From Verrucomicrobiota bacterium (GTDB taxonomy: Bacteria > Verrucomicrobiota > Verrucomicrobiia > Chthoniobacterales > UBA10450): a stretch of 15,688 bases of DNA. Shown here piece after piece: positions 25 through 15,488 of the stretch. Position numbers and translations under genes: made by a program. The notes beneath the pieces are model-generated. The model ran no database searches and was not told the origin of the DNA. It was given only the letters and a program-made list of their open reading frames with translations. Within the stretch, counting starts at the first letter, position 1. Each line of letters opens with the position of its first letter. Where the stretch lies: positions 1 through 15,688 of the forward strand of contig QHOR01000020.1 in assembly GCA_003219395.1 (NCBI GenBank), given 5' to 3'.

Positions 25-47
25 GGCGTCACAGCAACCGTGCAATG

Positions 48-68: not shown

Positions 69-85
69 GCGAATTGAGAAAACGA

Positions 86-1237: not shown

Positions 1238-1240
1238 ATG

Positions 1241-1268: not shown

Positions 1269-2174
1269 GATAATACGCGCGCCCTGGTTATCGGCACGTG
1301 TTACAATTGTAGCAGACGGAGACGATCTGGCGGCACGCTTCATCGCTGCCGCAACCCGGTCTGGATGCAGCAATGTGATCGCGCAGATTGCCGACCCACT
1401 GCCACTAAGGAAGGCGCCGAGCGCGCCTGCTTGTTCTGCACCGGCTATGACCTCCGGAAGGAACGAAATCAGTTTTTTCCGAAAAGGCTGATGCAGATAA
1501 TCAGCAAAAGCTCCGCGCAGCTTTTCGTAATCTCTTGAGGCGAAGGCAGCGGTAATGCCGCACGCATTTGCACAATTCATAACCGCGGCGGCATGCGAAA
1601 TTTTCGATGGCAAAAGTTTTCTCGCTATCGAAGTCGAAATTTCAAGGTCTGGAATTAGCAAGACGAAAAACAAGCGCTGGGAAACCTCGAACCGTTGCAA
1701 AGTAGGAATGCCACGGCCGCGCGCCAAACGTCCGCCACTTGGACGGTCTCGTTTCGTAGCGAGCTTTCGAGAGTCACGGCAGGGTCCCGAACCTGCCACT
1801 GCCGTAAACCCGCCAAAAGCAGCTGGCGCAGCATTATCAGGGTGACCTTCCAAGTCAGCGCATAATTGGAACAGGGTCAGACGATCGAGGTTAAGCGCGG
1901 ACAATATTCCGAGGCGGATCGTTGCGCTGCTGCCGAGGCCGCGCGAACGCGGAATGTTTTGTGCGATTGAAAAAGAAAATGGAAACGCGCTGCGACGTAC
2001 CTGTCTAAAGAACCGGTCGGCTGCCTGCGCGACAATTTGCGGATGCAGGCGTTCGCTCGATAGAACGCGGGTAACTGTTACGCTGTTATGAATGCGTAGT
2101 GCGACACCCAGGCAATCGAAGCCAGGACCAAGATTCGAGGTGCTCGCCGGAACGCGAACGGTAGCTTGCTGCAT
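1245..2174 (-). CDS. thrB: Homoserine kinase (GHMP family)
   Basis: ThrB phosphorylates homoserine with ATP in the last-but-one step of threonine synthesis in the cytosol. The ATG at 2174 gives MQQATVRVPASTSNLGPGFD, the normal GHMP N-terminus, and a 309-residue protein. The ATP-binding motif PRSRGLGSSA is at about residues 75-84, followed by EGHPDNAAPAAFGGF (about 109-123) and the C-terminal GAFLSGSGSA motif. A longer frame runs upstream to 2348 but overlaps the divergent methyltransferase gene and lacks homology-like sequence. Two oddities are visible. Residues about 126-160 form an Arg/Gly/Ser-rich segment between GGFTAV and FVLLIP that looks like an in-frame palindromic repeat insertion. 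The last residues (RSRITDH) are encoded by a heptamer array. The essential motifs on both sides are intact, so the enzyme may still work. Confidence 0.95.
   Translation of the reverse strand: MQQATVRVPASTSNLGPGFDCLGVALRIHNSVTVTRVLSSERLHPQIVAQAADRFFRQVRRSAFPFSFSIAQNIPRSRGLGSSATIRLGILSALNLDRLTLFQLCADLEGHPDNAAPAAFGGFTAVAGSGPCRDSRKLATKRDRPSGGRLARGRGIPTLQRFEVSQRLFFVLLIPDLEISTSIARKLLPSKISHAAAVMNCANACGITAAFASRDYEKLRGAFADYLHQPFRKKLISFLPEVIAGAEQAGALGAFLSGSGSAICAITLLHPDRVAAAMKRAARSSPSATIVTRADNQGARIIRSRITDH
1695..1805 (+). repeat. GTAG-headed multi-hairpin element inside thrB (copy A)
   Basis: On the plus strand, antisense to thrB, GTAG (1702-1705) is followed by three self-complementary parts. The first is CGTCC/GGACG (1729-1733 and 1741-1745) with a 7-base loop. 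The second is CTCG/CGAG (1748-1751, 1760-1763). The third is a compound hairpin in which GGCAGG (1778-1783) can pair with CCTGCC (1792-1797), or ACGGCA (1776-1781) with TGCCGT (1800-1805). The segment matches the part of ThrB that looks inserted. Its boundaries and its kinship with the other copies are inferred. Confidence 0.45.
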
Positions 2175-2269
2175 TCGGAGACGGAGTGTAGCGACGCGCA
2201 GCTCGGGCGGCAACCGATCCGTCAGGCCATGCCGAATCGAAAGTGTGCGCGTAAATACGGCTGAGCAAA
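2175..2269. promoter_or_regulatory. Divergent intergenic region between thrB and the methyltransferase gene
   Basis: These 95 bases separate two genes transcribed away from each other, so promoters for both should lie here or just inside the genes. I found no convincing -35/-10 pair, operator palindrome or Shine-Dalgarno sequence. The role rests on position alone. Confidence 0.35.
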
Positions 2270-3181
2270 ATGAGTCCTGGCTGGATTGATGCAAGTTTGT
2301 TTCGCGACTTCCAAGCCGAGGGAACCGACGCCCATCGACTCTGCACAATCGAAGATGGCTGGGTCGAGCGCTTCGGACCCGACATTCTCATCTCGTTCAA
2401 ACGAGTCTTGACCCGCGAGCGGCTAATTCAGGAATTGAAGGAATGGGCGCGTGGTATCCCTTTCACGTTTGAACGCATCTTCGCGCGATTCGTTCCTCGA
2501 AAAAACGAACAACGCGAACCGCCTCGGCTCATCTGTGGAAACCCGGCTGAAAATCTACAAACCATTGCTGCCGAGCGGCGTTTGAAGTTTGGGATCGATT
2601 TCGGCGTGGGCTTCTCTGTCGGTCTATTTCCAGATCAGAGAGAAAATCGCAGTTTTGTCCGTCAAATCGCGCCGAAGCGCCTGTTGAACTGTTTTGCCTA
2701 CACTTGCTCGTTTTCTGTGAGCGCGGCCCACGTCGGAGCAGTGACTCTTAACATCGACCTTTCAAAGAAATCTCTGGCACGCGGACGGGAGAATTTTGCC
2801 CTGAACAGCCTGCCAACAATGGACCATCGCTTCATCGCCGACGACGTAATGGCGGTATTACCGCGGTTAGCTGGTAAAGGCGAGAAATTTGACGCCATCA
2901 TTCTCGATCCGCCAACTTTTTCGCGTTCGCCCGGAGGAAATACCTTTCACGTTGAAGATGACTTCGAAAAATTACTGATTGATTCCCTCGAACTGGCAGA
3001 ACGAAATAGCCATATCCTGATCTCTACTAATTGCTCCACATTACGGGAGCAGGCCTTAGAAGTGATGGCCCGCTACGGCCTGAAGAAAGCACGCCGCGCC
3101 GCCACATGGCGCCGGTCGTCCCCCCTGCCTGATTTCCCGGCCGGAACAGGCGCAAGCTCGATTTGGCTAACCTTGCGTTAA
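2270..3181 (+). CDS. Class I SAM-dependent methyltransferase, RlmI/RlmK-like (23S rRNA type)
   Basis: The 303-residue protein resembles the catalytic part of 23S rRNA methyltransferases of the RlmI (m5C1962) group. GIDFGVGFSVGLFPDQRENR (108-127) is the family signature before the SAM fold. LLNCFAYTCSFSVSAA (138-153) is SAM motif I, NIDLSKKSLARGRENFALN (161-179) holds the acidic ribose-binding residue, and LDPPTFSRS (212-220) is motif IV. TNCS places a Cys at 255, where m5C enzymes carry a catalytic Cys. The N-terminal PUA domain of E. coli RlmI (about 396 residues in all) is missing, so the exact rRNA base is uncertain. The ATG at 2270 has no clear Shine-Dalgarno sequence. The small downstream membrane-protein gene could overlap its stop if read from its longest start. 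Confidence 0.85.
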   Translation: MSPGWIDASLFRDFQAEGTDAHRLCTIEDGWVERFGPDILISFKRVLTRERLIQELKEWARGIPFTFERIFARFVPRKNEQREPPRLICGNPAENLQTIAAERRLKFGIDFGVGFSVGLFPDQRENRSFVRQIAPKRLLNCFAYTCSFSVSAAHVGAVTLNIDLSKKSLARGRENFALNSLPTMDHRFIADDVMAVLPRLAGKGEKFDAIILDPPTFSRSPGGNTFHVEDDFEKLLIDSLELAERNSHILISTNCSTLREQALEVMARYGLKKARRAATWRRSSPLPDFPAGTGASSIWLTLR

Positions 3182-3228
3182 AGGTCGATGCGCGCAGAGC
3201 AGGATCACAATCCGAATCATTTAACGAA

Positions 3229-3510
3229 ATGGATCGATCAACTGCTGAAGTCGCCGCTGAACTTCCGGAACGCGGTCTGCATTGGGTAAAGGAACAAGTC
3301 GAGACAGCTCTGAGCGAAACTGAGGGTTACGTTCGCGAAAAACCGGCGCAGTCACTTCTGTGTGCGTTCATGGCGGGTTACGTTTTGAATCGTTTGCCGC
3401 TCGTCAGAATTCTGGCCGGTGTTTTACGATTGGTTATGGTGGCACTAAGGCCCGCTATTCTGATTTACGGCGCTGCCAAGCTGTATCAGGCGGCACAGGA
3501 AGAAGAGTAA
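3229..3510 (+). CDS. Small membrane-anchored protein of unknown function
   Basis: The 93-residue protein has an acidic amphipathic N-terminal half (MDRSTAEVAAELPERGLHWV onwards, to about residue 40). After the KPAQSLL junction come two hydrophobic stretches at about residues 41-58 and 62-84, ending in a charged AAQEEE tail. The layout (soluble helix, then a C-terminal membrane hairpin) resembles the DUF883/YqjD type of ribosome- or envelope-associated proteins. The resemblance is general and I do not assign a function. An alternative ATG at 3163 adds 22 residues and overlaps the methyltransferase stop by 19 bases. I prefer 3229 because the extra residues are basic and look like non-coding sequence. 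It is probably cotranscribed with the methyltransferase gene. Confidence 0.7.
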   Translation: MDRSTAEVAAELPERGLHWVKEQVETALSETEGYVREKPAQSLLCAFMAGYVLNRLPLVRILAGVLRLVMVALRPAILIYGAAKLYQAAQEEE

Positions 3511-3515
3511 TGCTG

Positions 3516-3600
3516 TAAGAGGTGTCGCCTGCGGCAGGCGCTAATCTCAGATCGGCGTTTCGCATAGCGCCCCGTGCGTCAGCCCTCCAAGGTGAAACCA
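3516..3600. repeat. Palindrome-rich spacer between convergent genes (possible copy E or bidirectional terminator)
   Basis: The spacer starts with GTAAGAGG, close to the GTAG(A/G)GG head of the other elements. It contains an exact 7-bp inverted repeat, CGCCTGC (3526-3532) and GCAGGCG (3534-3540), and then a weaker GGCG...CGCC pair with CATAGCGCC nearby. It lies between the ends of two genes facing each other, and its right end overlaps the last codons of the dodecin gene. Without a T-run a classical terminator is not shown. Membership of the repeat family is tentative. Confidence 0.4.
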
Positions 3601-3788
3601 ATCTTGAGCGTTACCTGCCAGTGATCAACCTTGCCGTTTTCGATGTATCCCCGTGTCTCGCTCACTTCAAACCACCGCATGTTGCGGACGGTTTTATGAG
3701 CGCGTGCCAGTGCATTCGTTACTGCATCCTCGAATCCGTTCGGTGAAGAGCCAACAACCTCAATTTTTTTATAAACATGATCAGACAT
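3579..3788 (-). CDS. Dodecin family flavin-binding protein
   Basis: Dodecins are small proteins that form hollow dodecamers storing or buffering flavins (and in some cases CoA) in the cytosol. The start at 3788 gives [20 protein letters not shown], the standard dodecin N-terminus, and 69 residues, the normal family size. [18 protein letters not shown] contains the Trp that stacks against the flavin ring in this family. [13 protein letters not shown] is the closing strand, whose Gln contacts the flavin. The frame extends upstream to 3857 with a hydrophobic leader ([14 protein letters not shown]...), but that extension has no place in a cytosolic dodecin. The gene stands alone between a convergent and a divergent neighbour. 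Confidence 0.93.
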
Positions 3789-3944
3789 GCGCTGATTATT
3801 TCTTGAGAGCGTCGGGAAAAACAATAAAAAGACGAGTCTTAGGTACCAGAGAGCCATGACGGCGGCGGGGTGCGGCGTGATGAATTGCCAGAAATTTGCT
3901 TTACAAACAGCTTGTAATTTCGGCAGCCTCGCTGCGTGGGGAAA
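3789..3944. promoter_or_regulatory. Divergent intergenic region, dodecin and secreted protein genes
   Basis: These roughly 155 bases separate two divergent starts and should hold both promoters. I tested TTGCCA (3885-3890) and TTTACA (3900-3905) as -35 boxes. Neither has a good -10 box at 16-18 bases, so no promoter is called. Confidence 0.3.
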
Positions 3945-4451
3945 ATGGTGGCAATCTCGGTCTCACTCCTGACGGCTCTCTCCTGCCTTCGCGCTCAGGA
4001 CCAGGAGCGCAAGCTGGTCGACCGCTTGCTTAGACCGGACATGAGCCTGCAAAGTGGCGAGCAGAAGAAAAAATTCATGGCAGATGGAACATCAATAAAC
4101 AAAAAAGCAACGGTCGGTGCATTTTACATCGAGAAAAAATCTAGATCGAAAGCGTTTTTGGGGACACGTGAAGTCTCGGCGAAGCAATTCAATTTCCCGC
4201 TTTTTCATGGTAGCCACGGCACATTTGAGAATTCATCGCAGCAATCATTGAGAAATTCTCGGGTTGCTTATCCCACTCAATCTATTCGCGAACCCCACGA
4301 TGCTCCTCAATCGGGCAAGAAGGTCGCCAGCCGTTCGTACGCAGAGAACCGGCCGTTTCTGGATCAGGGTAAGAGCCAGAAGTCGCTCAATCGGCAAAAC
4401 GCGCCGCTCACAATCGATCAGGTGCGCGAGTTGCTGAATAAAAACAAGTAG
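3945..4451 (+). CDS. Predicted secreted protein of unknown function
   Basis: The 168-residue protein begins with a short signal peptide ([17 protein letters not shown]), and cleavage is plausible after the Ala before QDQERK. The Cys is not in a canonical lipobox. The mature part is hydrophilic, Ser/Lys/Arg/Gln-rich and probably largely disordered. Two segments look constrained: [18 protein letters not shown] just after the signal peptide, and a C-terminal motif [14 protein letters not shown] that should form an amphipathic helix. I recognise no domain. A GTG at 3936 would add three residues; the ATG has GGGGAAA directly upstream. The gene ends 29 bases before tyrS on the same strand, so the two may be cotranscribed. 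Confidence 0.65.
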
Positions 4452-4471
4452 CGCGCCGGCCGGCGGCGCTA
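4449..4471. terminator. GC-rich imperfect hairpin between the secreted-protein gene and tyrS
   Basis: A nearly palindromic G+C stretch runs from the TAG stop of the upstream gene to 10 bases before the tyrS ATG. The outer arms are TAGCGC and GCGCTA, and the inner CCGGCCGG adds further pairing with a one-base bulge. No T-run follows, so it could be an attenuating stem at the tyrS start or simply a stable spacer. I cannot show that it terminates transcription. Confidence 0.35.
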
Positions 4472-4480
4472 TCGTTGATC

Positions 4481-5656
4481 ATGCAACCGGATGAAGCTCT
4501 CGCGTTGTTAAGCCAAGGCGCCGCGCAACTCATCGACGAGGAGCAACTGCGGAGCAAACTCGCGCTCGGGCGGCCGTTGCGGGTCAAATTAGGTGTCGAT
4601 CCAACCACCTCCGACATCCATCTTGGACACACTGTTGTGTTGCGAAAACTGCGGCAGTTTCAGGACCCGGGACACCAGGCAATTCTGATCATCGGTGATT
4701 TCACTGGCATGATTGGCGATCCGAGTGGTCGATCTGTGACGCGGCCACAGTTGACGCACGCTGAGGTGCTGGCAAATGCGGCGACTTACCGCGAACAGGC
4801 TTTTAAGATTCTGGATCGCGAGCGGACAGAAACCGTTTGTAACGGAGACTGGTTTCGTGCGATGTCGTTTGAAGATGTTATTCGACTAAACAGCCGAGTC
4901 ACCTTGCAACAGATGTTGCAGCGCGAAGATTTCAAGACTCGGATCGACAACCAGCACTCAATTCGCGCTCATGAAATCCAATACCCGATCATGCAGGGCT
5001 GGGATTCGGTAATGGTTCGGGCCGACGTGGAACTTGGCGGAACGGATCAACTATTCAACATTCTGATCGGGCGCGATTTCCAACAAGAAGAAGGGTTGCC
5101 GCAGCAGGTTGTTTTCCTGCTTCCTATTCTCGAGGGTTTAGATGGCTCCAAAAAAATGAGTAAGAGCCTCGGAAACTTCGTCGGAATTAACGAACCGGCC
5201 TCTGAGATGTTCGGGAAACTGATGAGCATCTCGGACGATTTGATGGCACGGTACTATGATCTGCTCCTTGGACGCAGCCGACCAGCCGGTGTGCATCCGC
5301 TCGAGGCTAAGAAGCAACTCGCGTTTGAGATTGTTCAGACGTATCACTCGCCTGCTGCTGCTCAAAAAACGCTCGTTGAGTGGAACACCCGCTTTAGCAA
5401 GCGCGACTTGGAACATGTTGATCTGCCTGCGTTCTCACCCATTTCCGGAGAGGGCCTGGCGGCTGTAGCGCTCGTTTCGCAGGTCTATCGAGAAGCATTC
5501 AACCTGGAAAAGTCCCATAGCGAAGTCTCGCGGCTGATTAAACAGGGAAGCGTAGAAATCGACGGGGCGAAAATCCGCGACCCAAAGGCTATAGTTATGC
5601 TTAAGCCAGGTCAGACACTTCGCCTCGATAGAAAACGCGCGGTGCACGTGCGCTGA
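4481..5656 (+). CDS. tyrS: Tyrosyl-tRNA synthetase
   Basis: TyrRS charges tRNA-Tyr with tyrosine using ATP. The 391-residue product carries the class I HIGH-type motif HLGH (47-50, within VDPTTSDIHLGHTVVLRKL), the nucleotide-binding IIGDFTGMIGDPSGRS, ELGGTDQLFN in the tyrosine/ATP pocket region, and a canonical KMSKS loop (225-229, GSKKMSKSLGN). The C-terminal 65 residues (SRLIKQGSVEIDGAKIRDPK...) are the S4-like tRNA-binding domain. The KMSKS and ELGGTDQ signatures match the TyrZ-type branch and not the E. coli TyrS branch, which has KFGKT. The ATG at 4481 is preferred over a TTG two codons upstream. No T-box leader is visible. The gene converges on the SRPBCC gene, with a 51-base spacer that has no clear hairpin. 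Confidence 0.98.
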   Translation: MQPDEALALLSQGAAQLIDEEQLRSKLALGRPLRVKLGVDPTTSDIHLGHTVVLRKLRQFQDPGHQAILIIGDFTGMIGDPSGRSVTRPQLTHAEVLANAATYREQAFKILDRERTETVCNGDWFRAMSFEDVIRLNSRVTLQQMLQREDFKTRIDNQHSIRAHEIQYPIMQGWDSVMVRADVELGGTDQLFNILIGRDFQQEEGLPQQVVFLLPILEGLDGSKKMSKSLGNFVGINEPASEMFGKLMSISDDLMARYYDLLLGRSRPAGVHPLEAKKQLAFEIVQTYHSPAAAQKTLVEWNTRFSKRDLEHVDLPAFSPISGEGLAAVALVSQVYREAFNLEKSHSEVSRLIKQGSVEIDGAKIRDPKAIVMLKPGQTLRLDRKRAVHVR

Positions 5657-5707
5657 TCGGGTGGTCAAGCGACGGCAACGGCTCCTCGGTTTAAGGTGTT
5701 CGTTTTG

Positions 5708-6184
5708 TCAGGCGGTAGCCGTTTGGAATATGGGCAGAACGCGTGCATGATCCAGGTAGCTGGCAGCAATGCCTTCGAAGTGTGCACGAATACTGCGCAG
5801 TTCGGCGGTGACAAAATTGTCCACAAAATGTAGGCGCCGGTCCAGCCAGGCAAACAGTTTGTTCTTAATCTCGTAATGAACTGCCAGCGTCACTTCAGTG
5901 CAATTTGGTCTAATCTCGGCAAAATCGACGATTCCCATCAGCGCAATATTTCCTCCGACTGACTCAAACGCGTATTGGTCAGGCGAATCGCTCTCGACGG
6001 ACAGGAGCACTGTGTGAGCTTGAAAGCCCAACGGACCTCGGAAGCTAAAATCGACGGTCTTGGACGAAGTCACAGTCGCCCGGGTGACCATCAGAAACTG
6101 CCGGCGATACGACTGAATGCTGGCAAGGCGAGCTTTGCACTCTGCCACCGGTTGACTCATGTGTAAGGTTTTTTGTAACAGCAT
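5708..6184 (-). CDS. SRPBCC-fold (polyketide cyclase/lipid-transport-like) protein
   Basis: The 158-residue protein (150 from the second ATG at 6160) shows the pattern of START/Bet v1-type proteins with a hydrophobic cavity. Alternating strands occur in the first half (RRQFLMVTRATVTSSKTVDFSF and HTVLLSVESDSPDQYAFES). A CTEVTLAVHYEIKN strand follows, and the end is a long helix (FVDNFVTAELRSIRAHFEG...). Ligand and role are unknown and no catalytic residue can be named. The MSQPVAECKARL start at 6160 looks more natural than the longer one, but neither has a ribosome site. It lies about 130 bases downstream of bioD, and the gap shows no terminator, so it may be the last gene of that transcript. 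Confidence 0.65.
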   Translation of the reverse strand: MLLQKTLHMSQPVAECKARLASIQSYRRQFLMVTRATVTSSKTVDFSFRGPLGFQAHTVLLSVESDSPDQYAFESVGGNIALMGIVDFAEIRPNCTEVTLAVHYEIKNKLFAWLDRRLHFVDNFVTAELRSIRAHFEGIAASYLDHARVLPIFQTATA

Positions 6185-6311
6185 AAGATAGCGCTTTCTT
6201 TTTGGAATAGTGAGAGCAACAGCGATGCCAGCCTCTCTCCACAGGGGAAACGCGCTCAGAATCCCTCAGTAAGTGTTCGTTTTTTTTACAACGCTGTATC
6301 GAGGCAACACG
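6185..6311. other. Gap between bioD and the SRPBCC gene
   Basis: These 127 bases hold a run of eight T on the plus strand (A on the transcribed minus-strand copy) near 6284-6291. They contain no open frame of note, no stable hairpin followed by T in the direction of transcription, and no convincing promoter. Confidence 0.4.
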
Positions 6312-6962
6312 CTACAACCCGATGGTGGACTTAAGCACAAGTCTCCAGTCAGCAGGCAGTTCGCTAGGATTTTCCCCTAGTCCACTCAGCACTGGTACAT
6401 TGAGAATTGTTCTGAGAATATCGGCATTGGTGAGAGAAGCTATGCCGCTGTTGTCTCGCGCGTTATTCAACACCAGCCCCGCACAACGGAGTCCGGATCC
6501 CACAACGCTTTGGACAGTGAGAACGGCGTGATTGAGACAACCGAGCCGATTGGCTGCGACCACCAAGACTGGCAGGTTCATCGCCACAGCCAGGTCGCTG
6601 GTGAAATAATCACGACGAATCGGGACCATCCAGCCGCCGACCCCTTCCACGACGACGTGTCCCACCCGATCCCGAAGAGCATCAAAAGCGGCGAGAATAT
6701 CTTCCACATCAATGTCCGTGTTCTCAAGCAGGCTGCCCACAATAGGCGCCGCCGGCGTTTTTAACCAAACCGGGTTGATATTTTCGATTGTCAGGCCGCG
6801 ATCACCGACTGCCAGCAGAAGCTCTGCATCTCGGCGATCTCCGCAGCAGATCGGTTTCATCCCCGCACAGGACCCACCGGCGGCCCGCAACAGCCGCAAA
6901 AGGCGAGTAACAGTATACGTCTTCCCGACGCCAGTGTCCGTCCCGGTGACGAAAAGACTCAC
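6312..6962 (-). CDS. bioD: Dethiobiotin synthetase
   Basis: BioD closes the ureido ring of dethiobiotin from 7,8-diaminononanoate, CO2 and ATP, the next-to-last step of biotin synthesis. The 216-residue size is normal. The P-loop GTDTGVGKT is at 7-15, the conserved KP(I) at 36-37, and VEGVGGWMVP (105-114) supplies the acidic residue and glycines at the dimer active site. LNLPVLVVAANRLG-type and LVLNN motifs follow. The GTG start overlaps the purQ stop (GTGA), so translation is probably coupled to purQ. No other biotin gene is in the window, so this bioD is separated from bioA/B/F, at least locally. Confidence 0.95.
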   Translation of the reverse strand: MSLFVTGTDTGVGKTYTVTRLLRLLRAAGGSCAGMKPICCGDRRDAELLLAVGDRGLTIENINPVWLKTPAAPIVGSLLENTDIDVEDILAAFDALRDRVGHVVVEGVGGWMVPIRRDYFTSDLAVAMNLPVLVVAANRLGCLNHAVLTVQSVVGSGLRCAGLVLNNARDNSGIASLTNADILRTILNVPVLSGLGENPSELPADWRLVLKSTIGL

Positions 6963-7693
6963 GCAACCTGCTTTACACGCTCCGGTGTGCGCGCAGAGCG
7001 GCTCGCGCTGATGCTTTGCACCATTGACCGGAAGATCTTTGCGCCATCCATGCTGCCAAGTCGCGCATCCGACGCACGATCAGGATGAGGCATGAGTCCA
7101 AACACGTTGCCCTGGCGATTGCAAATACCTGCAATGTTCTCGATCGACCCATTTGGATTTGTTTCCGGCGTAACCGAACCCTTGCCATCAACGTAACGCA
7201 AGATCACCTGTCGGTTTGCGTTCAGCTCGCGCAACGTCGCTGCATCCGCAAAAAAACAGCCTTCGCCATGCGCTATCGGCAGTCGGAGAACCGTCCCCTT
7301 TGGGCAACCGCGGGTGAATGGTGAATCATCGACTTCGACACGCGTATTGATCATCTCACACACGAAACGCAGCGAACGATTGCGAACCAGCGCGCCCGGC
7401 AACAGACCAGCTTCGCACAGCACTTGGAATCCATTGCACGTCCCGAGGATGAGCTTCCCGGCACGCGCATCATTAATCACTGCCTTCATGATGGGGGAAA
7501 ACCGAGCAATGGCGCCGCAGCGCAGGTAATCGCCGTGGGCGAAGCCTCCAGGCAGCACAATTGCGTCGAAAGCGTCCAGTGACGTATCCTTGTGCCAAAC
7601 GTATTCGGCACGCAAGCCATCGAGGCCATTGATTGCGGCAACGCAGTCCTGATCGCAATTCGAACCGGGGAACTGGATAACGGCGAATCTCAT
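6959..7693 (-). CDS. purQ: FGAM synthetase glutaminase subunit PurQ
   Basis: PurQ hydrolyses glutamine and passes ammonia to PurL for the fourth step of purine synthesis, in a complex with PurS. The ATG at 7693 gives MRFAVIQFPGSNCDQD, the normal PurQ start. The frame upstream to 7768 would run into pmp3. LPGGFAHGDYLRCGAIAR (47-64) precedes the nucleophile elbow GTCNGFQVL with Cys86, and PIAHGEGCF follows near 139-147. The C-terminal motif is MPHPDRASD. His203 is in place, but the residue two further on, normally the triad Glu, is Asp205 (codon 7079-7081). The protein is 244 residues, somewhat longer than the B. subtilis form (about 227), with an Arg-rich C-terminal tail. Confidence 0.96.
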   Translation of the reverse strand: MRFAVIQFPGSNCDQDCVAAINGLDGLRAEYVWHKDTSLDAFDAIVLPGGFAHGDYLRCGAIARFSPIMKAVINDARAGKLILGTCNGFQVLCEAGLLPGALVRNRSLRFVCEMINTRVEVDDSPFTRGCPKGTVLRLPIAHGEGCFFADAATLRELNANRQVILRYVDGKGSVTPETNPNGSIENIAGICNRQGNVFGLMPHPDRASDARLGSMDGAKIFRSMVQSISASRSARTPERVKQVA

Positions 7694-7700
7694 CGGTAAT

Positions 7701-7886
7701 TCAACGCACTGCTGCGGCACGCTGCTCCGCGTGATAATCATTGACGACCAGGCAAGCGTGAATAACACCCGGAATCCAGCCCAGCAAAGTCAAAATGAGG
7801 CTGAGAAAGAAACTGGCGATGCGACCCGTCAGTAGCACGGCGAGCGGTGGCAACAAAACGCAGAAAAAATATCGCAGCGCTTTCAT
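7701..7886 (-). CDS. Pmp3/YqaE (UPF0057) small membrane protein
   Basis: This 61-residue peptide is almost entirely two hydrophobic helices, about residues 5-20 (YFFCVLLPPLAVLLTG) and 25-47 (SFFLSLILTLLGWIPGVIHA), followed by a short polar tail. The pattern LPPLAVLL...LTLLGWIPGVIHA is the Pmp3/YqaE signature. Members sit in the cell membrane and are linked to salt and membrane-potential stress in yeast and plants; the bacterial role is unclear. Its ATG overlaps the purS stop by 4 bases (ATGA), and it ends 7 bases before purQ, so it is locked inside a purine operon. Confidence 0.92.
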   Translation of the reverse strand: MKALRYFFCVLLPPLAVLLTGRIASFFLSLILTLLGWIPGVIHACLVVNDYHAEQRAAAVR

Positions 7887-8185: not shown

Positions 8186-8255
8186 CGCATCACCATATTT
8201 GCGGTCACTCAAACGACAAGGCCGAATACCCGCAGATGGACTAACTCTGGTGCTC

Positions 8256-9323
8256 TCATTTCAAGACCACAATCTCAAGCTCACCATCGCGGCCAAGTAC
8301 GTTAAGACCTACGTCTCCTTCATCATGTCTGGTAAGCAGAAGGTTGACGCGCGCTTCTCCTACCCGCACCTCACGAATACTCACTTGGCGCAGGAAACCC
8401 GGTAGAAGTGGCTTGGAAAAAACCAGTTTTTTTTCCGGAGCCATTATGCTCAATCCAAGGCAGGCCTCGAGCAATAGGAACACCGCTCCGGATGCCCACG
8501 CCTGCGGCGCGCATGCCACGGGATACAACGTTGGAGATTCACCAGGCCGCCTCGGAAAACCGCAAAACAATTCCGGGAGCCGATGGAGATCGAAGAACAG
8601 ACTGGCGTCCAGCAAACCTGCCAAAACTGCGATTGCAGATTGAGTCAGTCCGTATCGGGCGAATCCAGCGGCGATTAAAGCATTGTCGTGTGGCCAGACC
8701 GACCCGTTATGATACGACATCGGGTTGTAACGTGCCTCGCTGGTGGCCACAGTGCGGATTCCCCAGCCCGAAAACGAACTCTCATCCATGAGCGTCGCCG
8801 CGACACGACGTGCATGTTCATCCGTGGCAATCCCAGCAAAAAGGCAGTGTCCGGCATTCGACGTTCGCACCCGGCAAGGCTCCTTGTTACCATCAAGCGC
8901 AAGCGCATACGTAGAAAGATCCTCGCACCAGAAGCGTTCCTCGAATCGGCGCTGCAAGTTTTGCGCTTGCTTCTTTAAATCTCGGGATCGCGTTTGATTG
9001 CCCATCAGCGCAGCAAGCTCCGCGGCGGCCAATTTTGCCGCATACACGTAAGCCTGCACTTCGCAAAGTGCGATGGGAGCTTCGGCAGGCGTGCCATCAC
9101 TATGGAAGACCGCATCGTGAGAATCTTTCCAACCTTGATGAATCAGCCCTCGTTTTGCCTTACGGGCATATTCAACGAAGCCATCACCGTCTGTATCGCC
9201 ATAGGAGTCAATCCAATCAAGCGCCCGATCAACGTTTGGCCATATTGACTCGGCAAAAGGACGATCGCCCGTGCGGTTGTAGTACGCGCCTGCGAGAATA
9301 ACGAAAAGCGGCGTAGCGTCCAC
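8256..9323 (-). CDS. Glycogen-debranching-type amylo-alpha-1,6-glucosidase, C-terminal fragment
   Basis: This is the catalytic (alpha/alpha)6-barrel half of a bacterial debranching enzyme, out of frame with its N-terminal half. The frame is open from about 9338, where it reads FGSVDATPLFVILAGAYYNRTGDRP, a typical internal sequence and not an N-terminus. Conserved pieces include QGWKDSHDAVFHSDG (63-77 counted from the GTG at 9323), RTSNAGHCLFAGI (153-165) and YNPMSYHNGSVWPHDNAL (199-216), which resemble the barrel motifs of GH15/GH63-like glucosidases. The C-terminus ends in a beta-rich domain (REVRVGEARVNLLLTRHD...). The GTG shown is simply the first possible start; I doubt it is a real initiation site. 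It is part of one gene with the frame upstream. Confidence 0.85.
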   Translation of the reverse strand: MDATPLFVILAGAYYNRTGDRPFAESIWPNVDRALDWIDSYGDTDGDGFVEYARKAKRGLIHQGWKDSHDAVFHSDGTPAEAPIALCEVQAYVYAAKLAAAELAALMGNQTRSRDLKKQAQNLQRRFEERFWCEDLSTYALALDGNKEPCRVRTSNAGHCLFAGIATDEHARRVAATLMDESSFSGWGIRTVATSEARYNPMSYHNGSVWPHDNALIAAGFARYGLTQSAIAVLAGLLDASLFFDLHRLPELFCGFPRRPGESPTLYPVACAPQAWASGAVFLLLEACLGLSIMAPEKKLVFSKPLLPGFLRQVSIREVRVGEARVNLLLTRHDEGDVGLNVLGRDGELEIVVLK

Positions 9324-10416
9324 GCTCCCGAATTTCGCCTAAAAGCGCCATTTCGTCCGCCCGCATCTCATGGACCACCTTGCCGGGCTGCGCATCTTGT
9401 TCCGGATTTTCCGAGTCGGCCTGAGTCGCCGCGAGATACGAGAGAACGCCACGGGCGATTGAGGGATCAAACCACAGACACTGCAGCGCGGTAATGATTC
9501 CGTCGCGGCCGAATACGGTGCTAAACCATGGAACGCCAGCGTAGGGATAGAGACCATACGGGGTATCCGTCAGCATCATTCGCAGATCGGCCAGGGAGCG
9601 ATTCAGCCAGTCGTTGAATTGCTCGTTGGCAGCGAAAATCTGTGGCTCTCGAGCGTTGGCACGGTCCTGTGCAGCTGCGGCTTCCTGGACAATTTTTTCG
9701 TAGCATGGCTCGACCTTGACCGATGGATCGCCATCGACTTCGCACCCGATCACGCACCGATAGCTGATTGCTTCACCGGCCTCCAACCTGACCTTGAAAG
9801 TGGCAAGCGATTCGCTCAATCGCATAGGCGGTGGATCAAAAATAATTCGTGTCCGCCGAAGACGATCATCCAGCCCTTGATAGGAAAGGACGACCTGGTC
9901 GGGCGTGACCACTGTTTCCAATCGTTGGCCGCGGCGTTCTCGCTTGGTGCCGCGCAGCTCAAAAATATCCACAAAATCAGCGTCAAACTCGATCGAGAAA
10001 GAAAATTCTACAGCTGCCCGTCCGAAGTTATGAATTCGAAGGCGCTCGTAACAAGCTCGCTCCCACAGAATCTTCGACCGAAAGAAATGCACCGTTCCCC
10101 GCGGAATCGCAATTTCGCTGTCGCGCCACGTGTCGGGATTCGTAGCATCCACGGCCATCACAGCATTGTCTTCCCTCACTGTCGAACTCAGCAGCAAAGG
10201 GCGATCCTGTCCGAGCCTCAATGTCAGCCGCGAGAGGAACCGGGTGTCTTGGCAATACAGCCCGAGTTCGCCAGTGCCGAAAGTGTCGATGTCACCGAAA
10301 CGATCGAAAACGGCGAACGTATCGCCATGTTTAAGTACCAGGGTGCGGACATCGATGCGCGTCGATGACGAGCGAATGTAAAATGCGTCCCGAACACGGA
10401 TCACTTCTTTGGCCAT
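9229..10416 (-). CDS. Glycogen-debranching-type amylo-alpha-1,6-glucosidase, N-terminal fragment
   Basis: Residues 1 to about 230 form the N-terminal beta-sandwich domain of bacterial glycogen debranching enzymes (FGDIDTFGTGELGLYCQDTRFLSRL at 40-64 is the signature). The barrel begins near residue 265 (FNDWLNRSLADLRMMLTD) with the conserved VPWFSTVFGRDGIITALQ (295-312). Homology-like sequence stops at LLGE (residue 361), and the last 34 residues are read in the wrong frame. The ATG sits one base after the glycosyltransferase stop and has GGAGGGG about 12 bases upstream, one of the few recognisable ribosome sites here. With the C-terminal fragment the protein would be about 720 residues, the expected size for this family. 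Its likely role is trimming alpha-1,6 branches of glycogen or related glucans. Confidence 0.87.
   Translation of the reverse strand: MAKEVIRVRDAFYIRSSSTRIDVRTLVLKHGDTFAVFDRFGDIDTFGTGELGLYCQDTRFLSRLTLRLGQDRPLLLSSTVREDNAVMAVDATNPDTWRDSEIAIPRGTVHFFRSKILWERACYERLRIHNFGRAAVEFSFSIEFDADFVDIFELRGTKRERRGQRLETVVTPDQVVLSYQGLDDRLRRTRIIFDPPPMRLSESLATFKVRLEAGEAISYRCVIGCEVDGDPSVKVEPCYEKIVQEAAAAQDRANAREPQIFAANEQFNDWLNRSLADLRMMLTDTPYGLYPYAGVPWFSTVFGRDGIITALQCLWFDPSIARGVLSYLAATQADSENPEQDAQPGKVVHEMRADEMALLGEIRERGRYAAFRYSRRRVLQPHGRSSFCRVNMAKR
9324..9345 (-). other. Frameshift/small deletion in the debranching enzyme gene
   Basis: On the minus strand the upstream frame reads LLGE-IRERG and the downstream frame reads KFGSVDATPLF, overlapping within about 10 bases. 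Relatives that I recall carry a short stretch such as (I/V)PFGxYYGSVD between the two, so several codons appear to be missing and the net loss is not a multiple of three. The site has no homopolymer longer than four bases, so a simple slip is a less natural reading than a short deletion. A sequencing or assembly error is still possible. Confidence 0.75.
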
Positions 10417-10417
10417 A

Positions 10418-11473
10418 CTACGCGCGCCCCTCCAATCGCTTGTCCTGCCCGCTTTTTATTCGTCGTTCGTAAACCTGCACGTAATCGTCAGCCATTCGAG
10501 TGGCGGTGAAACGTTGCTCGAAGACTTCGCGACACCGCTTGCGGCTCAATTCCGGCACACGGCCAACGGCTTGTACTGCGTCTTCTAGTCCCTTGACGAT
10601 GAAGCCCGTATGTCCCTGCTCCATTATTTCGGAAACGGCCCCTCCGCGATAGGCGATCACCGGTGTCCCGCACGCCATCGCTTCGATCATCACCAGTCCA
10701 AATGGTTCTGGCCAATCAATGGGAAACAATAAAGCGTGGGCGTTTCCAAGAAACTCCTCCTTCTCGCCGTCGCCAATCTCACCAACGAATTCCACCAGTG
10801 GATCGCGAAGTAACGGTTGAACGACTGCCTCGAAATAATCCTTGTCTATTCGGTCCACTTTGGCTGCAATCTTGAGCGGGATTTGCACGCGCTTGGCAAT
10901 TTCGATCGCACGGTCGGCGCGCTTCTCCGGAGAAATTCGCCCTAGAAACGCGAGATACTTTCCCGGTTCCGAGTGAAACCGGTACAGGTCAGCGGGCACT
11001 CCGTGATAAACTGTAGCCTGCCAATTTGCCTGAGGTAAAGGTTGTCTTTGCCCATTTGAGATCGAGATGACAGGCATGTCTCGAAACTCCTGGTAAAGGG
11101 GAATCAGGTCTGGGATATCCAGGCGGCCATGTAACGTGGTGACATGCGTGGTCGACTGCCGACGACTCAGCGGAAAGTGCAGGTAATCGACGTGAAAATG
11201 AACGATATCAAATTCCGCAGCGCGCTGGAAGACGTGTTCAAGCATAAGGATTTGGTGCGCCATTTGGTCGACGCAATGTTTATCCAGGCGCAGTGAACGG
11301 CGGCATGCGGCAACAAGGTGGGCCTTAGTCACCGAATCACCGCTCGCAAAGAGAGTAACTTCGTGGCCCTGACGAATTAATTCTTCAGTGAGATACGACA
11401 CCACCCGTTCTGTTCCTCCGTAGTACTTCGGAGGCACGCTCTCAAAAAGCGGTGCGATCTGAGCGATTCGCAT
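10418..11473 (-). CDS. GT4-family glycosyltransferase
   Basis: This 351-residue enzyme has the GT-B fold of retaining GT4 transferases. MRIAQIAPLFESVPPKYYGG (1-20) with GGTERVVSYLTEELIRQGHEV (19-39) forms the acceptor-side N-domain. FLGRISPEKRADRAIEIAK (176-194) starts the nucleotide-sugar domain. EPFGLVMIEAMACGTPVIA (256-274) contains the EX7E motif (Glu256 and Glu264). Sugar donor and acceptor cannot be told from sequence. Such enzymes often sit beside this type of debranching enzyme, and here the two genes are one base apart, which suggests joint alpha-glucan or trehalose/glycogen metabolism. GGGA five bases before the ATG is a weak ribosome site. It starts 95 bases after ligD, so it may have its own promoter. 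Confidence 0.9.
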   Translation of the reverse strand: MRIAQIAPLFESVPPKYYGGTERVVSYLTEELIRQGHEVTLFASGDSVTKAHLVAACRRSLRLDKHCVDQMAHQILMLEHVFQRAAEFDIVHFHVDYLHFPLSRRQSTTHVTTLHGRLDIPDLIPLYQEFRDMPVISISNGQRQPLPQANWQATVYHGVPADLYRFHSEPGKYLAFLGRISPEKRADRAIEIAKRVQIPLKIAAKVDRIDKDYFEAVVQPLLRDPLVEFVGEIGDGEKEEFLGNAHALLFPIDWPEPFGLVMIEAMACGTPVIAYRGGAVSEIMEQGHTGFIVKGLEDAVQAVGRVPELSRKRCREVFEQRFTATRMADDYVQVYERRIKSGQDKRLEGRA

Positions 11474-11568
11474 AACATTCCCAAACTCTTCCCATTGGAA
11501 TTGTTCAATTTTTCGCGCAGCCGCAGGTCAAGCCACAACTACACCAATCAAAGGCCACGGCGTCCGCC

Positions 11569-13320
11569 TTAAGTCTCGCGAATAACTTCGCTGGGATTTT
11601 TATCTTCGCGCAACCCGAGAAAAACCGGCGCACGCAATTTTTTATCTCGCGTCCACTCGGCAAATTTAACTTCGCAAACGAAAACCGGATTTACCCAATG
11701 CATCTTGCGCATCATGGAAGGTGTGATGTCTTGAACCCATTGCCCATTTTGCCTCGATGGTAGATCGACAAAAGGACAATCGTTGCGCGCTTCCTTCTGA
11801 AATTTTTTGTACAAAATCGACAATGATTTCACCGTGAAGCCGGTGCCAACCTTGCCGGCAAAAACGAGCTTTTTGTTCTGGTAATAACCAACGAGGATCG
11901 CTCCGAAATATTTGCGAGACCCCTGAGGTGGCGTGTATCCCCCGATGACAAATTCCTGTTCGTTGACGCACTTGAGCTTTATCCATGCGGCACTTCTGCG
12001 CCCCGGTTCGTAAACAGAATTAGATTGTTTTCCGATAAGCCCTTCCAGGCCCCGACGTTTTACTTCTGCCAGAAGTCGCCTGGCGTCGGTGCCAATCGCG
12101 CCGGAGAAGCGAATCGGATCACGTGCCTCGGCGCAGAGTTTTTCCAGAACATCTTTGCGCGCCTCCAACGGCAATGACGCCAGACTGTGGCCATCAATTT
12201 GCAGCAGATCGAATGCGTAAAAATAAACCGGTGTCTTTCGCCCCTCCATCTCCCGCGCTTGGAGGAGTTGAAAGGAGGAACGGCCCTCCTGGTCAAGCGC
12301 CACCACTTCGCCGTCGATTACACATTCGCGCGCGGGCAAAGTTTTCATCGCCTCGACCACTTCAGGGAACCGCTTAGCCAATTCGTTTTCATTGCGCGAG
12401 AGCAACGAAATCTTTTCGTTCCTTTTAACTCCAATTAGACGGATGCCGTCGAATTTGAGTTCGTAAATCCAATCACCCGTCACTGGCGGTTGCTCAACCA
12501 GCTTTGCTTTCATCGGTTCGACGAAACGAGCTTTTGCCGCAGGCAAATTGGATAGAGACAGCTCGCCCTGCCTTTCATGTCCATCTTCGGATGTGATTTT
12601 CCGCTGCGCCCGACCCGCCTCTGCCGTAGGGGGCCTTAGCCGTGGCGAGCGACCACGCCGCGTCGATTCACGCCCTGCCATGGCAGTGCGGATGCGCGCC
12701 TTGAATTGTGACGAGGGGCTCTGGTCCGCTTCGCGACCGGATTCCCACTCGGCATCTCGAGCCTCGGCGATTTGCTCCATGGTGCGTCCAGTTTTTACCG
12801 AACGATCTTCCATTTTTTTTGATACCGGATTCGCGTCATCTCCCGTTTTCAGGATCAACCACTGATTTTTTTCTTCATCACGACCGCGAATTCGCACCAG
12901 AGTCCATTCGCCTTTTGCTTTGGCGCCGTCGAGAACGAGATGAAGCTTTCCTTCCTTGAGCGACTTGCTCGGTTGTTCGCCGTAAACGCGATAATTCCCT
13001 CGATCCCACACCATGACCGTGCCGCCCCCATATTGCCCCTCCGGGATAATTCCTTCGAAGCCTTCATATTCGATCGGATGATCTTCTACTTCCACTGCGA
13101 GGTGCTTTTCACCCCGTTTCCAAGGAACTCCTTTAGGCAATGCCCATGATTTCAGGACGCCCTCCATTTCCAGGCGGAAGTCGTAATGCAAACGCCGCGC
13201 GGCGTGTTTTTGAATGACGAAACGCGACGCACCTTTGATTTGCCTCGGCAGCGGTTTGCCGCCGGCAGGCTCAGCTGTCTTCTTGAAGTCGCGTTTCCGC
13301 TTGTATTCGGCTAGGCCCAT
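11569..13320 (-). CDS. ligD: ATP-dependent DNA ligase LigD, phosphoesterase plus ligase domains
   Basis: LigD repairs double-strand breaks with Ku. This 583-residue form has the 3'-phosphoesterase domain first (about 30-190: FVIQKHAARRLHYDFRLE with His39 and His45, VEDHPIEYEGFEG with His81). The ATP-dependent ligase domain follows (about 265-575). Motif I is YELKFDGIR with the adenylated Lys289, then IDGEVVALD (335-343), GLEGLIGKQ (motif IV, 424-432), WIKLKC (motif V, 446-451) and an OB-fold end (EFVIGGYTPPQGSR...). The primase/polymerase domain of Mycobacterium or Pseudomonas LigD is absent. Residues about 205-241 in the interdomain linker are Arg-rich and lie on a palindromic repeat. No ku gene is in the window. 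The ATG at 13320 has only a weak GTGGA upstream. Confidence 0.95.
   Translation of the reverse strand: MGLAEYKRKRDFKKTAEPAGGKPLPRQIKGASRFVIQKHAARRLHYDFRLEMEGVLKSWALPKGVPWKRGEKHLAVEVEDHPIEYEGFEGIIPEGQYGGGTVMVWDRGNYRVYGEQPSKSLKEGKLHLVLDGAKAKGEWTLVRIRGRDEEKNQWLILKTGDDANPVSKKMEDRSVKTGRTMEQIAEARDAEWESGREADQSPSSQFKARIRTAMAGRESTRRGRSPRLRPPTAEAGRAQRKITSEDGHERQGELSLSNLPAAKARFVEPMKAKLVEQPPVTGDWIYELKFDGIRLIGVKRNEKISLLSRNENELAKRFPEVVEAMKTLPARECVIDGEVVALDQEGRSSFQLLQAREMEGRKTPVYFYAFDLLQIDGHSLASLPLEARKDVLEKLCAEARDPIRFSGAIGTDARRLLAEVKRRGLEGLIGKQSNSVYEPGRRSAAWIKLKCVNEQEFVIGGYTPPQGSRKYFGAILVGYYQNKKLVFAGKVGTGFTVKSLSILYKKFQKEARNDCPFVDLPSRQNGQWVQDITPSMMRKMHWVNPVFVCEVKFAEWTRDKKLRAPVFLGLREDKNPSEVIRET
12620..12690 (+). 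repeat. GTAG-headed multi-hairpin element inside ligD (copy B)
   Basis: On the plus strand, antisense to ligD, GTAG (12626-12629) is followed by GGC/GCC (4-base loop). Next comes CGTGG/CCACG (12641-12645, 12653-12657) with a 7-base loop, then the exact 12-base palindrome CTGCCATGGCAG (12675-12686). The order and the 5/7/5 hairpin geometry match copies A and D although the arm sequences differ. It encodes the Arg-rich interdomain linker of LigD, where an in-frame insertion would be tolerated. Confidence 0.45.
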
Positions 13321-13360
13321 TCCACGGCAACTTAACTACGGATTGGCCGTGTGCACGCGA

Positions 13361-13431
13361 CGTTGTCGGGCACCTGTATGGAGCGCCTATGGCTGTGTCT
13401 GCCTTCGCCGGGGCGAACGCCCTCTACAACG
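13361..13431 (-). repeat. GTAG-headed palindromic element between tsf and ligD (copy C)
   Basis: On the minus strand, directly after the tsf stop, GTAG (13424-13427) is followed by GGGCG/CGCCC (13411-13415, 13418-13422). An alternative and mutually exclusive pairing is TTCGCC/GGCGAA (13404-13409, 13412-13417). The whole block is bounded by CGTTGT (13361-13366) and its inverse ACAACG (13426-13431). It may also act as the tsf terminator stem, but no T-run follows. Confidence 0.45.
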
Positions 13432-13432
13432 C

Positions 13433-14050
13433 CTACGCCTCGCTCGGTAACGCTTCGCCGACCAGGTAACGGACAAAACGACGGATGACGATGTTTTCAC
13501 CCAACTCGGAAATCTTTGCATTCAGCAAATCCTTAACGGTCACATCAGGGTTCTTGATGAAGCCTTGTTCGAGCAGGCAAACGGTACTGTAAAATTTGTC
13601 GAGCTTTCCTTCAACAATTTTGTCGGCAACATTCGCTGTTTTGCCTTTGACCTGGGCCTTGTAAATTTCACGCTCAGCTTCAATGAGGTTGCCGGGCACA
13701 TCTGCACGGCTGACGTAAAGTGGGTGGGCTGCTGCAATATGCAATGTGATGTCCTTCACGAACTCGCGAAAATTCTCGTTTCTCGCCACGAAGTCCGTCT
13801 CACAATTCACCTCCACGAGCACGCCGACCTTTCCTTGCAGGTGAATATAGGAAGCCACGACGCCTTCTTTCGTTGCGCGTGAAGCTTTCTTTCCCGCGCT
13901 GGCAATTCCCTTGGTCCGTAAAATCGTTTCCGCTTTCTCCAGATCGCCGCCGCTCTCCACGAGCGCGCGCTTGCAATCCATAAAACCTGCATTGGTTTTT
14001 TCGCGGAGCTGCTTAACTAGTTGGGGATCAATCTCGGCTGTTGTCTTCAT
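13433..14050 (-). CDS. tsf: Elongation factor Ts
   Basis: EF-Ts exchanges GDP for GTP on EF-Tu during translation. The 205-residue protein is the short form, like that of Thermus, and lacks the extra C-terminal subdomain of the E. coli protein (283 residues). Residues 1-48 form the UBA-like N-domain (VKQLREKTNAGFMDCKRALVE). TDFVAR at 85-90 contains the Asp-Phe pair that enters the EF-Tu nucleotide site. The end (LGENIVIRRFVRYLVGEA) closes the core. It follows rpsB by 73 bases on the same strand, the near-universal arrangement, and is probably read from the same message. No Shine-Dalgarno sequence is visible. Confidence 0.98.
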   Translation of the reverse strand: MKTTAEIDPQLVKQLREKTNAGFMDCKRALVESGGDLEKAETILRTKGIASAGKKASRATKEGVVASYIHLQGKVGVLVEVNCETDFVARNENFREFVKDITLHIAAAHPLYVSRADVPGNLIEAEREIYKAQVKGKTANVADKIVEGKLDKFYSTVCLLEQGFIKNPDVTVKDLLNAKISELGENIVIRRFVRYLVGEALPSEA

Positions 14051-14123
14051 GAATAATTAGGGTGTTAAAAAAGAATTCAGCGGACGTTAACCATCAATCA
14101 TCGGCGAGTGGCTATGCGGCCAG

Positions 14124-14855
14124 CTACGCTGAGACGCCAGCCATCTCAACTTGCTCGCGGATCCGCGCTTCGTTGCTTGCAGAGACGATGGCATCCACGA
14201 GCTTCTGCAGAATCACGCGAATCGCACGAATCGCGTCATCGTTGCCAGCAATGGGATAATCGATGATGTCTGGGTCCGCATTCGTGTCCACGATGGCAAC
14301 CACTGGAATCCCAAGTCGGCGAGCCTCGTTGACGGCGTTTTGTTCACGGATCGTGTCGATTATAACCAGAGCGTCGGGCAATTGAGACATCTCGAGTATA
14401 CCCTCAAGATTGCGCCGGAGCTTTGCCGCTTCACGATTAAGAGCAGCGAGCTCCTGCTTGCCCATCTTTTTGTATTCGGGTGACTTCTCGATCTCTTCGA
14501 TGTATCTCAGTCGCCCGATGCTCTTGCGAATGGTCGCGAGGTTGGTCAATGTGCCGCCCAGCCATCGCTGATTGACGTAGAACTGAGCGCAAGCCAGCGC
14601 CGCTTCCTTTATCGCTTCCTGCGCCTGTTTCTTGCAACCAACAAATAAGATTCTGCCTCCGCGGCGGGTTACTTCCTGGAGAAATTCAGTTGCCCGGCGA
14701 AGCTGCAGCACGGTTTCATCCAAATTGATGATGTAAATCTGGTTGCGCTGCTCAAAGATGAACGCCTTCATCTTCGGATTCCAGCGCTTCGTCTGATGTC
14801 CAAAATGAACACCAGCTTCCAAAAGCTCAGGTACTAATTCTGTCGTATCGGCCAT
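14124..14855 (-). CDS. rpsB: 30S ribosomal protein S2
   Basis: S2 binds late to the 30S subunit and is needed for S1 attachment in many bacteria. The 243 residues carry the family signatures LLEAGVHFGHQTKRWNPKMK (11-30), IYIINLDETV (40-49), ILFVGCKKQAQEAI, FYVNQRWLGGTLTN, and PDALVIIDTIREQNAVNEAR followed by GIPVVAIVDTNADPD. The length is normal. It lies 48 bases after the membrane-protein gene and upstream of tsf. In several bacteria S2 represses its own message through a leader structure. I see no such structure here in so short a leader, and no clear ribosome site. Confidence 0.99.
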   Translation of the reverse strand: MADTTELVPELLEAGVHFGHQTKRWNPKMKAFIFEQRNQIYIINLDETVLQLRRATEFLQEVTRRGGRILFVGCKKQAQEAIKEAALACAQFYVNQRWLGGTLTNLATIRKSIGRLRYIEEIEKSPEYKKMGKQELAALNREAAKLRRNLEGILEMSQLPDALVIIDTIREQNAVNEARRLGIPVVAIVDTNADPDIIDYPIAGNDDAIRAIRVILQKLVDAIVSASNEARIREQVEMAGVSA

Positions 14856-14903
14856 AAGAGAAAATCCGCGAGAGGGGAACTCCGGAACGGGACGGTGAAG
14901 ATG

Positions 14904-15488
14904 CTACAGCACGGGTGGATGTGCAACCTGAAATTCAGCGCCAGGACTGGCATCATTAAGTGCTGTTTTACGACCTCTGACCGTGGACTTGGGATGTCTC
15001 TCCGGCACGCCGTGCGACACAACACGCGATCGGGTTCGGAATTGCCCCGAAGGACGTGTCCTCCTACCCACAAGGATGTGGATCAACAGGAAGATCGGCA
15101 AAGCCAGTCCGATACCAAGATGAAGCCAACTCGTCCACGCGCGCAGTCTTTCGCCGCCCGCATAGTAAAGGCCATACCCGGTAATGACCAAAACGGTGAA
15201 TACACTCAGAAACAGTGAGCCGTTTACACGATTACGGCCCGCGCGCCATGCGAATCTCACATGGCCGCTCAAGAGCATGCCGATCAACACCAGAATCGCC
15301 ATGGCCGCCGCGCCATGAATCTTCATGGCCCAGCTTTTCGCGCCTGTTTCAAAATCGCCCGGCGCCACCGCCAGATAATTCCAATATGCCCACACGACAC
15401 CGCTGAAAAAAAGCAGTGCGACGACGACGTACAGCAAATATCTCTGCAAGCGTTTCAATCGAATCGAGTCTGGTCGCGGGTGTCGCAT
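14904..15488 (-). CDS. Four-helix membrane protein, possible diheme cytochrome b-like subunit
   Basis: From the ATG at 15488 the protein has 194 residues and four hydrophobic helices, at about 17-33, 57-75, 91-109 and 119-140. Four histidines sit at helix ends: His58 (MKIHGAA) and His76 (SGHVRFAW) on helix 2, and His123 (SWLHLG) and His137 (LLIHIL) on helix 4. Helices 2 and 4 should run parallel, so His58/His123 and His76/His137 could each bind one b-type heme near opposite membrane faces, as in cytochrome b561/DUF4405-type proteins. This is inference. About 50 C-terminal residues (from GRRTRP on) look non-native: Arg-rich, without helices, and read from a palindromic repeat. The start overlaps the apbE 3' end by 34 bases. 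An alternative start at 15509 adds 7 residues. Confidence 0.72.
   Translation of the reverse strand: MRHPRPDSIRLKRLQRYLLYVVVALLFFSGVVWAYWNYLAVAPGDFETGAKSWAMKIHGAAAMAILVLIGMLLSGHVRFAWRAGRNRVNGSLFLSVFTVLVITGYGLYYAGGERLRAWTSWLHLGIGLALPIFLLIHILVGRRTRPSGQFRTRSRVVSHGVPERHPKSTVRGRKTALNDASPGAEFQVAHPPVL
15001..15067 (-). repeat. GTAG-headed multi-hairpin element at the 3' end of the membrane-protein gene (copy D)
   Basis: On the minus strand GTAG (15064-15067) is followed by AGGAC/GTCCT (15051-15055, 15058-15062), and TTCGG/CCGAA (15035-15039, 15047-15051) with a 7-base loop. GCACG/CGTGC (15005-15009, 15011-15015) comes last. This is the same order as copy B: head, short stem, 5/7/5 hairpin, then a tight palindrome. 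The host gene reads through it and gains an Arg-rich tail. Confidence 0.45.

Follow-up and report, generated by a model that had tools for sequence, protein, structure and literature searches.

Repetitive extragenic palindromic (REP) elements tagged by the tetranucleotide GTAG are already known, as are their dimers, their occurrence within genes and their abundance in O. terrae (Di Nocera et al. 2013, PMC3733652, in the portion of the paper cited here). A survey (PMC6006769) has likewise described double-foot REPs as well as REPs located in tnpAREP genes; according to its cited part, it discarded proteins longer than expected, taking them for fusions or errors of annotation. Here we present an analysis of a 15,688-nucleotide stretch of DNA (G000:C25, positions 1-15688; hereafter the window) from a metagenome-assembled verrucomicrobial genome (2.8 Mb, 370 contigs, 62% complete), which was placed in the genus Candidatus Udaeobacter of soil bacteria. 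An initial annotation had pointed to four, perhaps five, short stretches of this DNA (A to E) as a family of REP- or MITE-like (miniature inverted-repeat transposable) elements sharing a GTAG head followed by hairpins, and proposed a covariance model, shuffled sequences and a search for empty orthologous sites as checks. Judging from orthologous sequences, A, B and C, and possibly E, are very probably decaying copies of GTAG-tagged REPs, mostly arranged as inverted pairs (REP doublets).

Sites A to E in related genomes

Doublets were counted as GTAG with CTAC ending 25-115 nt downstream, and orthologous segments were compared with 300 shuffles. At A they were present in 11 of 29 orthologous segments (0.34 in shuffles), at B in 17 of 30 linkers (0.26) and at C in 9 of 27 spacers (1.08), and at each site all 300 shuffles remained below the observed value. 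Since the doublets exceed the shuffles so far, we take A, B and C as REP sites. GTAG ranked 2nd at A, 7th at B, 10th at C and 75th at E among 240 words, a ranking made without control for composition.

As stated in the initial annotation, A and B lie in protein linkers, C is intergenic and D forms a protein tail. In homoserine kinase, the host of A, the stretch between the conserved GGF and QRF could be read in 29 of 30 genus loci; it comprises 9-37 residues, is always in frame, and is longest in the window. GTAGGGCATGCGTCCCGCTTGCC stands in this linker in L029 and L031, with near variants in others. Of 23 genomes from other genera, 21 gave a match, and every one of these had the flanking pieces at most 24 nt apart. 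Together with short linkers in some genus-mates, and with the RecG site described below, where 11 loci are empty, these lengths show insertion polymorphism at orthologous sites. When used as a DNA query against its own genome, A returned only itself.

The LigD insert is longer than the interval initially given for B (12620-12690), which covers only part of it. Its content varies by species and includes TTGTAGGGCAGGCG pairs, GGTAGGGCGCGACCGCC pairs, nested elements and an unrelated GTCATTCCGAGC-type element. The linker length was a multiple of three in all 30 genus loci compared; in a larger set, 77 of 80 linkers were measurable, 71 being multiples of three and 6 not. Many LigD orthologues also carry nine consecutive A (three lysine codons, AAA) ahead of the REP, a stretch that the window copy does not have. 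There are ten A in L323 and L324, and these two loci and L321 have lost the frame, due to either a slippery site or a sequencing error. At C, intact dimers were seen in several relatives, between the genes for EF-Ts and LigD.

E may be a remnant of a REP doublet: by eye the site looks doublet-like in some relatives, and it measures 28-44 nt in L212, L220-L222 and L227. D was rejected as a REP copy. The other 7 genomes with this gene have no GTAG there, G016, G029, G027 and G006 read GGGAAGG where the window reads GGGTAGG (a point difference), and the whole tail could be aligned in three orthologues with no change of length; the GTAG of D is, by these alignments, evidently a product of chance. 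The shared GTAG-headed plan and the REP-like nature claimed initially can therefore be kept for A, B and C, whose orthologous sites are filled, short or differently filled and whose kind forms a family in the genus; both have to be given up for D, and E, which has no GTAG, is a possible case at most.

Genus-wide REPs and RAYT-like genes inside host genes

The pattern GTAGGGCNNGCGNNCCGCNNGCC, representing one stem subfamily, gave 333 matches with at most one mismatch in 34 of 35 genomes, versus 8 for the reversed pattern (10 versus 0 in the own genome of the window). A covariance model based on 14 intact REPs of the genus, applied to no more than 150 candidates in each genome, yielded 17-80 matches per genome at E ≤ 0.1, with 20 in the own genome; dispersed copies are thus present there, in modest numbers for a genome 62% complete. 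GTAG was also the top four-letter word before stems of at least 8 bp in G018 (32-fold), G030 (17-fold) and the pool (11-fold), and 6th in G016 (2 cases), with three stretches in the samples selected for holding thrB or LigD. The intact REPs have a single head and several stem types, so that the initial remark on entirely different arm sequences is true of them, the window copies being without pairing.

No transposase was found in the window as far as it was read, in agreement with the initial annotation, and the genome holds two genes resembling those of REP-associated tyrosine transposases (RAYTs). Matches to the Pfam family Y1_Tnp (PF01797), IS200-type transposases included, occur in 33 of 35 genomes; the two of the own genome are RAYT-like and both in frame with host genes. 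One, in the RecG helicase, has RecG matches on either side of the RAYT (residues 430-570) and scores 78.2 bits with the RAYT profile NCBIfam NF047646 (cut-off 80); the end of this frame, after a masked run, is not RecG. The other, fused to the front of a cytochrome c protein, scores 85.5 bits and passes the cut-off.

At the RecG site, 35 genomes were searched, 30 loci were found and 28 were scored (G027 is partial; G017 is unscorable and shows stops). Fifteen loci have inserts of RAYT length (678-909 bp between anchors), 2 are REP-only (156 and 228 bp) and 11 are empty (60-96 bp), all 28 being multiples of three and stop-free. In G021 and G022 an extra RecG piece without insert was seen, perhaps contamination or a second gene. 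The insert end in L369 reads GGTAGCGCACGCGTCTCGCGTGC-TGGCGACGGCGTCGCGCCGTCGC, a GTAG head with two successive hairpins, and has its inverse counterpart opposite. Among the 15 filled copies the 5' stretch has GGGTAGCGC in 6, GGGGAGC in 4 and neither in 5; the own copy has degenerate ends (GGGGAGC), while relatives have GTAG ends. On a tree of the host part of RecG, the site states require at least 9 changes. The nearest relatives of the own genome, G016 and G029 (87.6 and 87.9% identity), are empty at this site; G032 and G010 share 97.4% identity, the former being filled and the latter empty.

The embedded transposases retain their catalytic motifs, as HUH and Tyr motifs were present in 12 of 12 RecG copies; in the set of 15, MPDHVH was found in 14 and MPDHAH in one, and the Tyr pattern in 14. 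The median dN/dS of the RAYT part was 0.11 (27 of 66 pairs usable, synonymous sites being near saturation), against 0.48 and 0.52 for the REP-derived flanks and 0.08 and 0.05 for the host; selection before insertion could partly explain the low RAYT value. A comparison of the embedded RAYT with PDB sequences gave only weak matches to regulators of G-protein, best E 0.00068, taken as chance, and a structure model of RecG-RAYT (P0005) was not used because of a mean pLDDT of 48.8.

RecG is not the only host. From the relatives, 35 PF01797 stretches with an open frame of more than 500 residues were fetched among the matches listed (L343-L377), so their in-frame reading is a matter of selection. 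By sequence motif the hosts were RecG (11), CarB (13) and MetH (6, at two sites), and by eye AlaRS (2, alaS), RarA (1) and Sua5 (2), that is at least 24 in-frame RAYTs outside RecG, in carB, metH, alaS, rarA and sua5. Pfam searches with 7 of the 35 frames gave host domains plus Y1_Tnp in all seven, with host domains on both sides in six. The RAYT copies in these six enzymes reach 55-78 bits with NF047646, under 80, and pass the Y1_Tnp cut-off where tested. In a protein database, 559 of 719 candidates matched the embedded RAYT; all 120 matches listed had helicase Pfam domains and many were named RecG-like helicase/RayT by the source.

Table 1. Features of the window and of related loci (window coordinates unless a locus is named).
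Feature	Location	Strand	GTAG head	Remark
A, probable degenerate GTAG REP doublet	1695..1800	+	1702-1705 (+)	nested second hairpin; about 30 codons of homoserine kinase linker
Homoserine kinase	1245..2348	-		GHMP kinase domains; host gene of A
B, probable degenerate REP doublet plus nested element	~12549..12685	+	12626-12629 (+)	LigD linker; limits by eye against relatives
LigD-type protein	11569..13320	-		3'-phosphoesterase domain and ATP-dependent DNA ligase; host gene of B
C, probable degenerate GTTGTAG...ACAAC REP doublet	13362..13430	-	13427-13424 (-)	EF-Ts/LigD gene spacer
E, possible REP-doublet remnant	3508..3582	+	none	between convergent genes
D, usual C-terminal tail of cytochrome-b-like protein	15001..15067	-	15067-15064 (-)	REP copy rejected
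RecG helicase with in-frame RAYT insert	L001:184-2679			own genome, C314; 831-residue frame
RAYT fused in frame to front of cytochrome c protein	L002:1312-2424			own genome, C32; beside actD
LigD linker with GTCATTCCGAGC...GGATGACA-type element	L124 (G021), L128 (G008), L135 (G023), L139 (G031)			L135 more changed

Elsewhere in the window, two overlapping open reading frames of the same strand (9229-10416 and 8256-9323, within 8256-10416 on the minus strand) look like a single gene broken by a frameshift.

Weight of the contrary evidence

Several results speak against regarding A, B and C as REP copies, or limit how far that reading reaches. The perfect 5-bp/7-base hairpins initially described for A, B and D are all there, with none in C or E. 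In all, the window contains 25 such hairpins compared with a shuffle mean of 19.0, and 24 of 200 shuffles reach 25, which is no enrichment. A GTAG[AG] head with such a hairpin within 70 nt occurs 6 times versus 1.5, a value reached in 0 of 200 shuffles by a rule derived from the very data it was scored on. Folding z values of 0.41 (A), -0.39 (B), -0.21 (C) and -0.24 (D), next to a background mean of -0.09 in 186 windows, place these four stretches no better than shuffled DNA, while E gave -2.05 on one strand and -0.65 on the other. The covariance model produced 11 matches in the window at E ≤ 10, none significant (best 1.4, head of C 4.2). Judged by folding and covariance model, the window copies thus do not conform to the published GTAG REP rule, which in the cited part of PMC6006769 requires GTAG or GTGG to be followed, after 0-2 nt, by a stem of 7-20 bp closing a loop of 2-5 nt: the heads of A, B and C are there and the stem is absent. 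The own-genome copy L009 conforms, as do relatives, including those at A and B. Inverted pairs, too, are absent from the window copies themselves and present in L009 and in relatives at A, B and C. The initial idea that structure was kept over sequence therefore fails for the window, whose copies are decaying relics with pairing lost. With hairpins, folds and model scores this weak, the window alone does not prove the family; the orthologues prove A, B and C.

The genomic data also contain contrary points. In the own genome GTAG comes no higher than 7th in the ranking by long stems that follow (3 cases, a single dimer accounting for two), intact REP copies are few, initial hairpin scans gave a weak signal and word enrichment in 161 kb revealed no high-copy repeat. 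The counts at orthologous sites are not independent because orthologues share ancestry, and at E the doublet was met in 1 of 29 segments, a value reached by 91 of 300 shuffles. In G017, G018 and G032, outside the 30 loci compared, the LigD reading breaks into two frames at the linker, so the frame is not kept without exception. The abundant GTAGGGC type is tied to no particular RAYT. Of 20 stand-alone PF01797 loci, 5 have a hairpin headed by GT[AG]G or GC[AG]G within 350 bp, and all six stand-alone proteins examined were scored as IS200/IS605 transposases, below the RAYT cut-off.

Among the rival explanations, the one that survives best holds that chance produced the GTAG words and short hairpins of A to E, these being ordinary, fast-evolving linkers and spacers. 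It agrees with the folding, hairpin and covariance results from the window and holds for D; for A, B and C the doublets in relatives and the genus-wide GTAG hairpin family already make it difficult to maintain, and as a general account we find it improbable. Classical MITEs mobilised by a non-RAYT transposase are a still less probable alternative. An unrelated GTCATTCCGAGC...GGATGACA-type element does replace the REP in the LigD linker of G021, G008, G031 and G023, which counts against the REP reading at this site and means that more than one element class uses it, but the GTAG guide with its hairpin, the inverted pairs and the RecG-site RAYT inserts with GTAG-type ends speak against a MITE origin. 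Structured RNA or DNA elements retained for a regulatory function are the least credible of the three: intact copies do have hairpins of differing stem sequence behind the head, and 8 of 23 homoserine kinase inserts of relatives fold better than shuffled sequence (z -2.3 to -3.5), but pairing is lost in the window copies, sites range from short to filled among close relatives, and Rfam at gathering thresholds returned 0 matches in the whole window.

REP copies as linkers and their described counterparts

For A, B and C as REP relics, the most likely mechanism would be that a RAYT, an HUH/tyrosine single-strand transposase, recognises the GTAG guide beside a hairpin and spreads the elements. 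Copies in spacers or flexible protein linkers could be retained as long as the added bases number a multiple of three and contain no stop; they would then lose pairing and act solely as a linker, and further elements may nest in older copies or replace them. The RAYTs of the genome would be the presumed movers of the window elements, and the linker would be tolerated with no function of its own. The pattern at RecG and the other RAYT hosts is tied to the window elements by kind, not by descent.

A wider proposal, to which we give even chances, is that REPs and RAYTs of Candidatus Udaeobacter are protein-embedded. RAYT-bearing and RAYT-less elements would occupy, without breaking the frame, fixed linkers of essential enzymes (RecG, CarB, MetH, AlaRS, RarA, Sua5), be translated as an extra domain with catalytic motifs under purifying selection, and be gained and lost between close relatives, the LigD and homoserine kinase linkers representing a worn-out, RAYT-less end state. 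How REPs and RAYTs persist is an open question, and this genus offers empty, REP-only and RAYT-filled alleles of one essential gene, by which it can be tested how elements are gained, lost and tolerated in frame and whether the embedded transposase is put to use. A survey that discards fused RAYTs would overlook residence within genes, and mobile DNA can set the linker length of essential enzymes.

In the open-licence literature, searched by title and abstract start, no paper on RAYTs inside housekeeping genes was found among those listed. Intragenic GTAG REPs are known; in-frame REP/RAYT elements of essential genes whose alleles may be filled, REP-only or empty would be a novel form of this known kind. 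In the cited portion of PMC3733652, the GTAG-tagged REPs share with ours the GTAG end beside a hairpin, inverted dimers, several stem families and in-frame intragenic copies, many adding 20-30 residues, and the REP-rich verrucomicrobium O. terrae has one copy in a DNA ligase gene. Compared with that portion, the elements presented here belong to another genus, the window copies are decayed, orthologous sites are shown in short, empty and filled states, and complete RAYT genes stand in frame within host genes. The Rickettsia palindromic elements treated in the same portion resemble ours as palindromes inserted in frame in unrelated host proteins, and differ by sequence class, ours having the GTAG guide and the link to RAYTs. 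The TnpAREP/RAYT double-foot REPs in the cited part of PMC6006769 are, like those of Candidatus Udaeobacter, elements of the form GT[AG]G ... C[TC]AC, and there REPs lie in frame inside tnpAREP genes, whereas in Candidatus Udaeobacter it is the RAYT that is embedded, in frame, in host enzymes.

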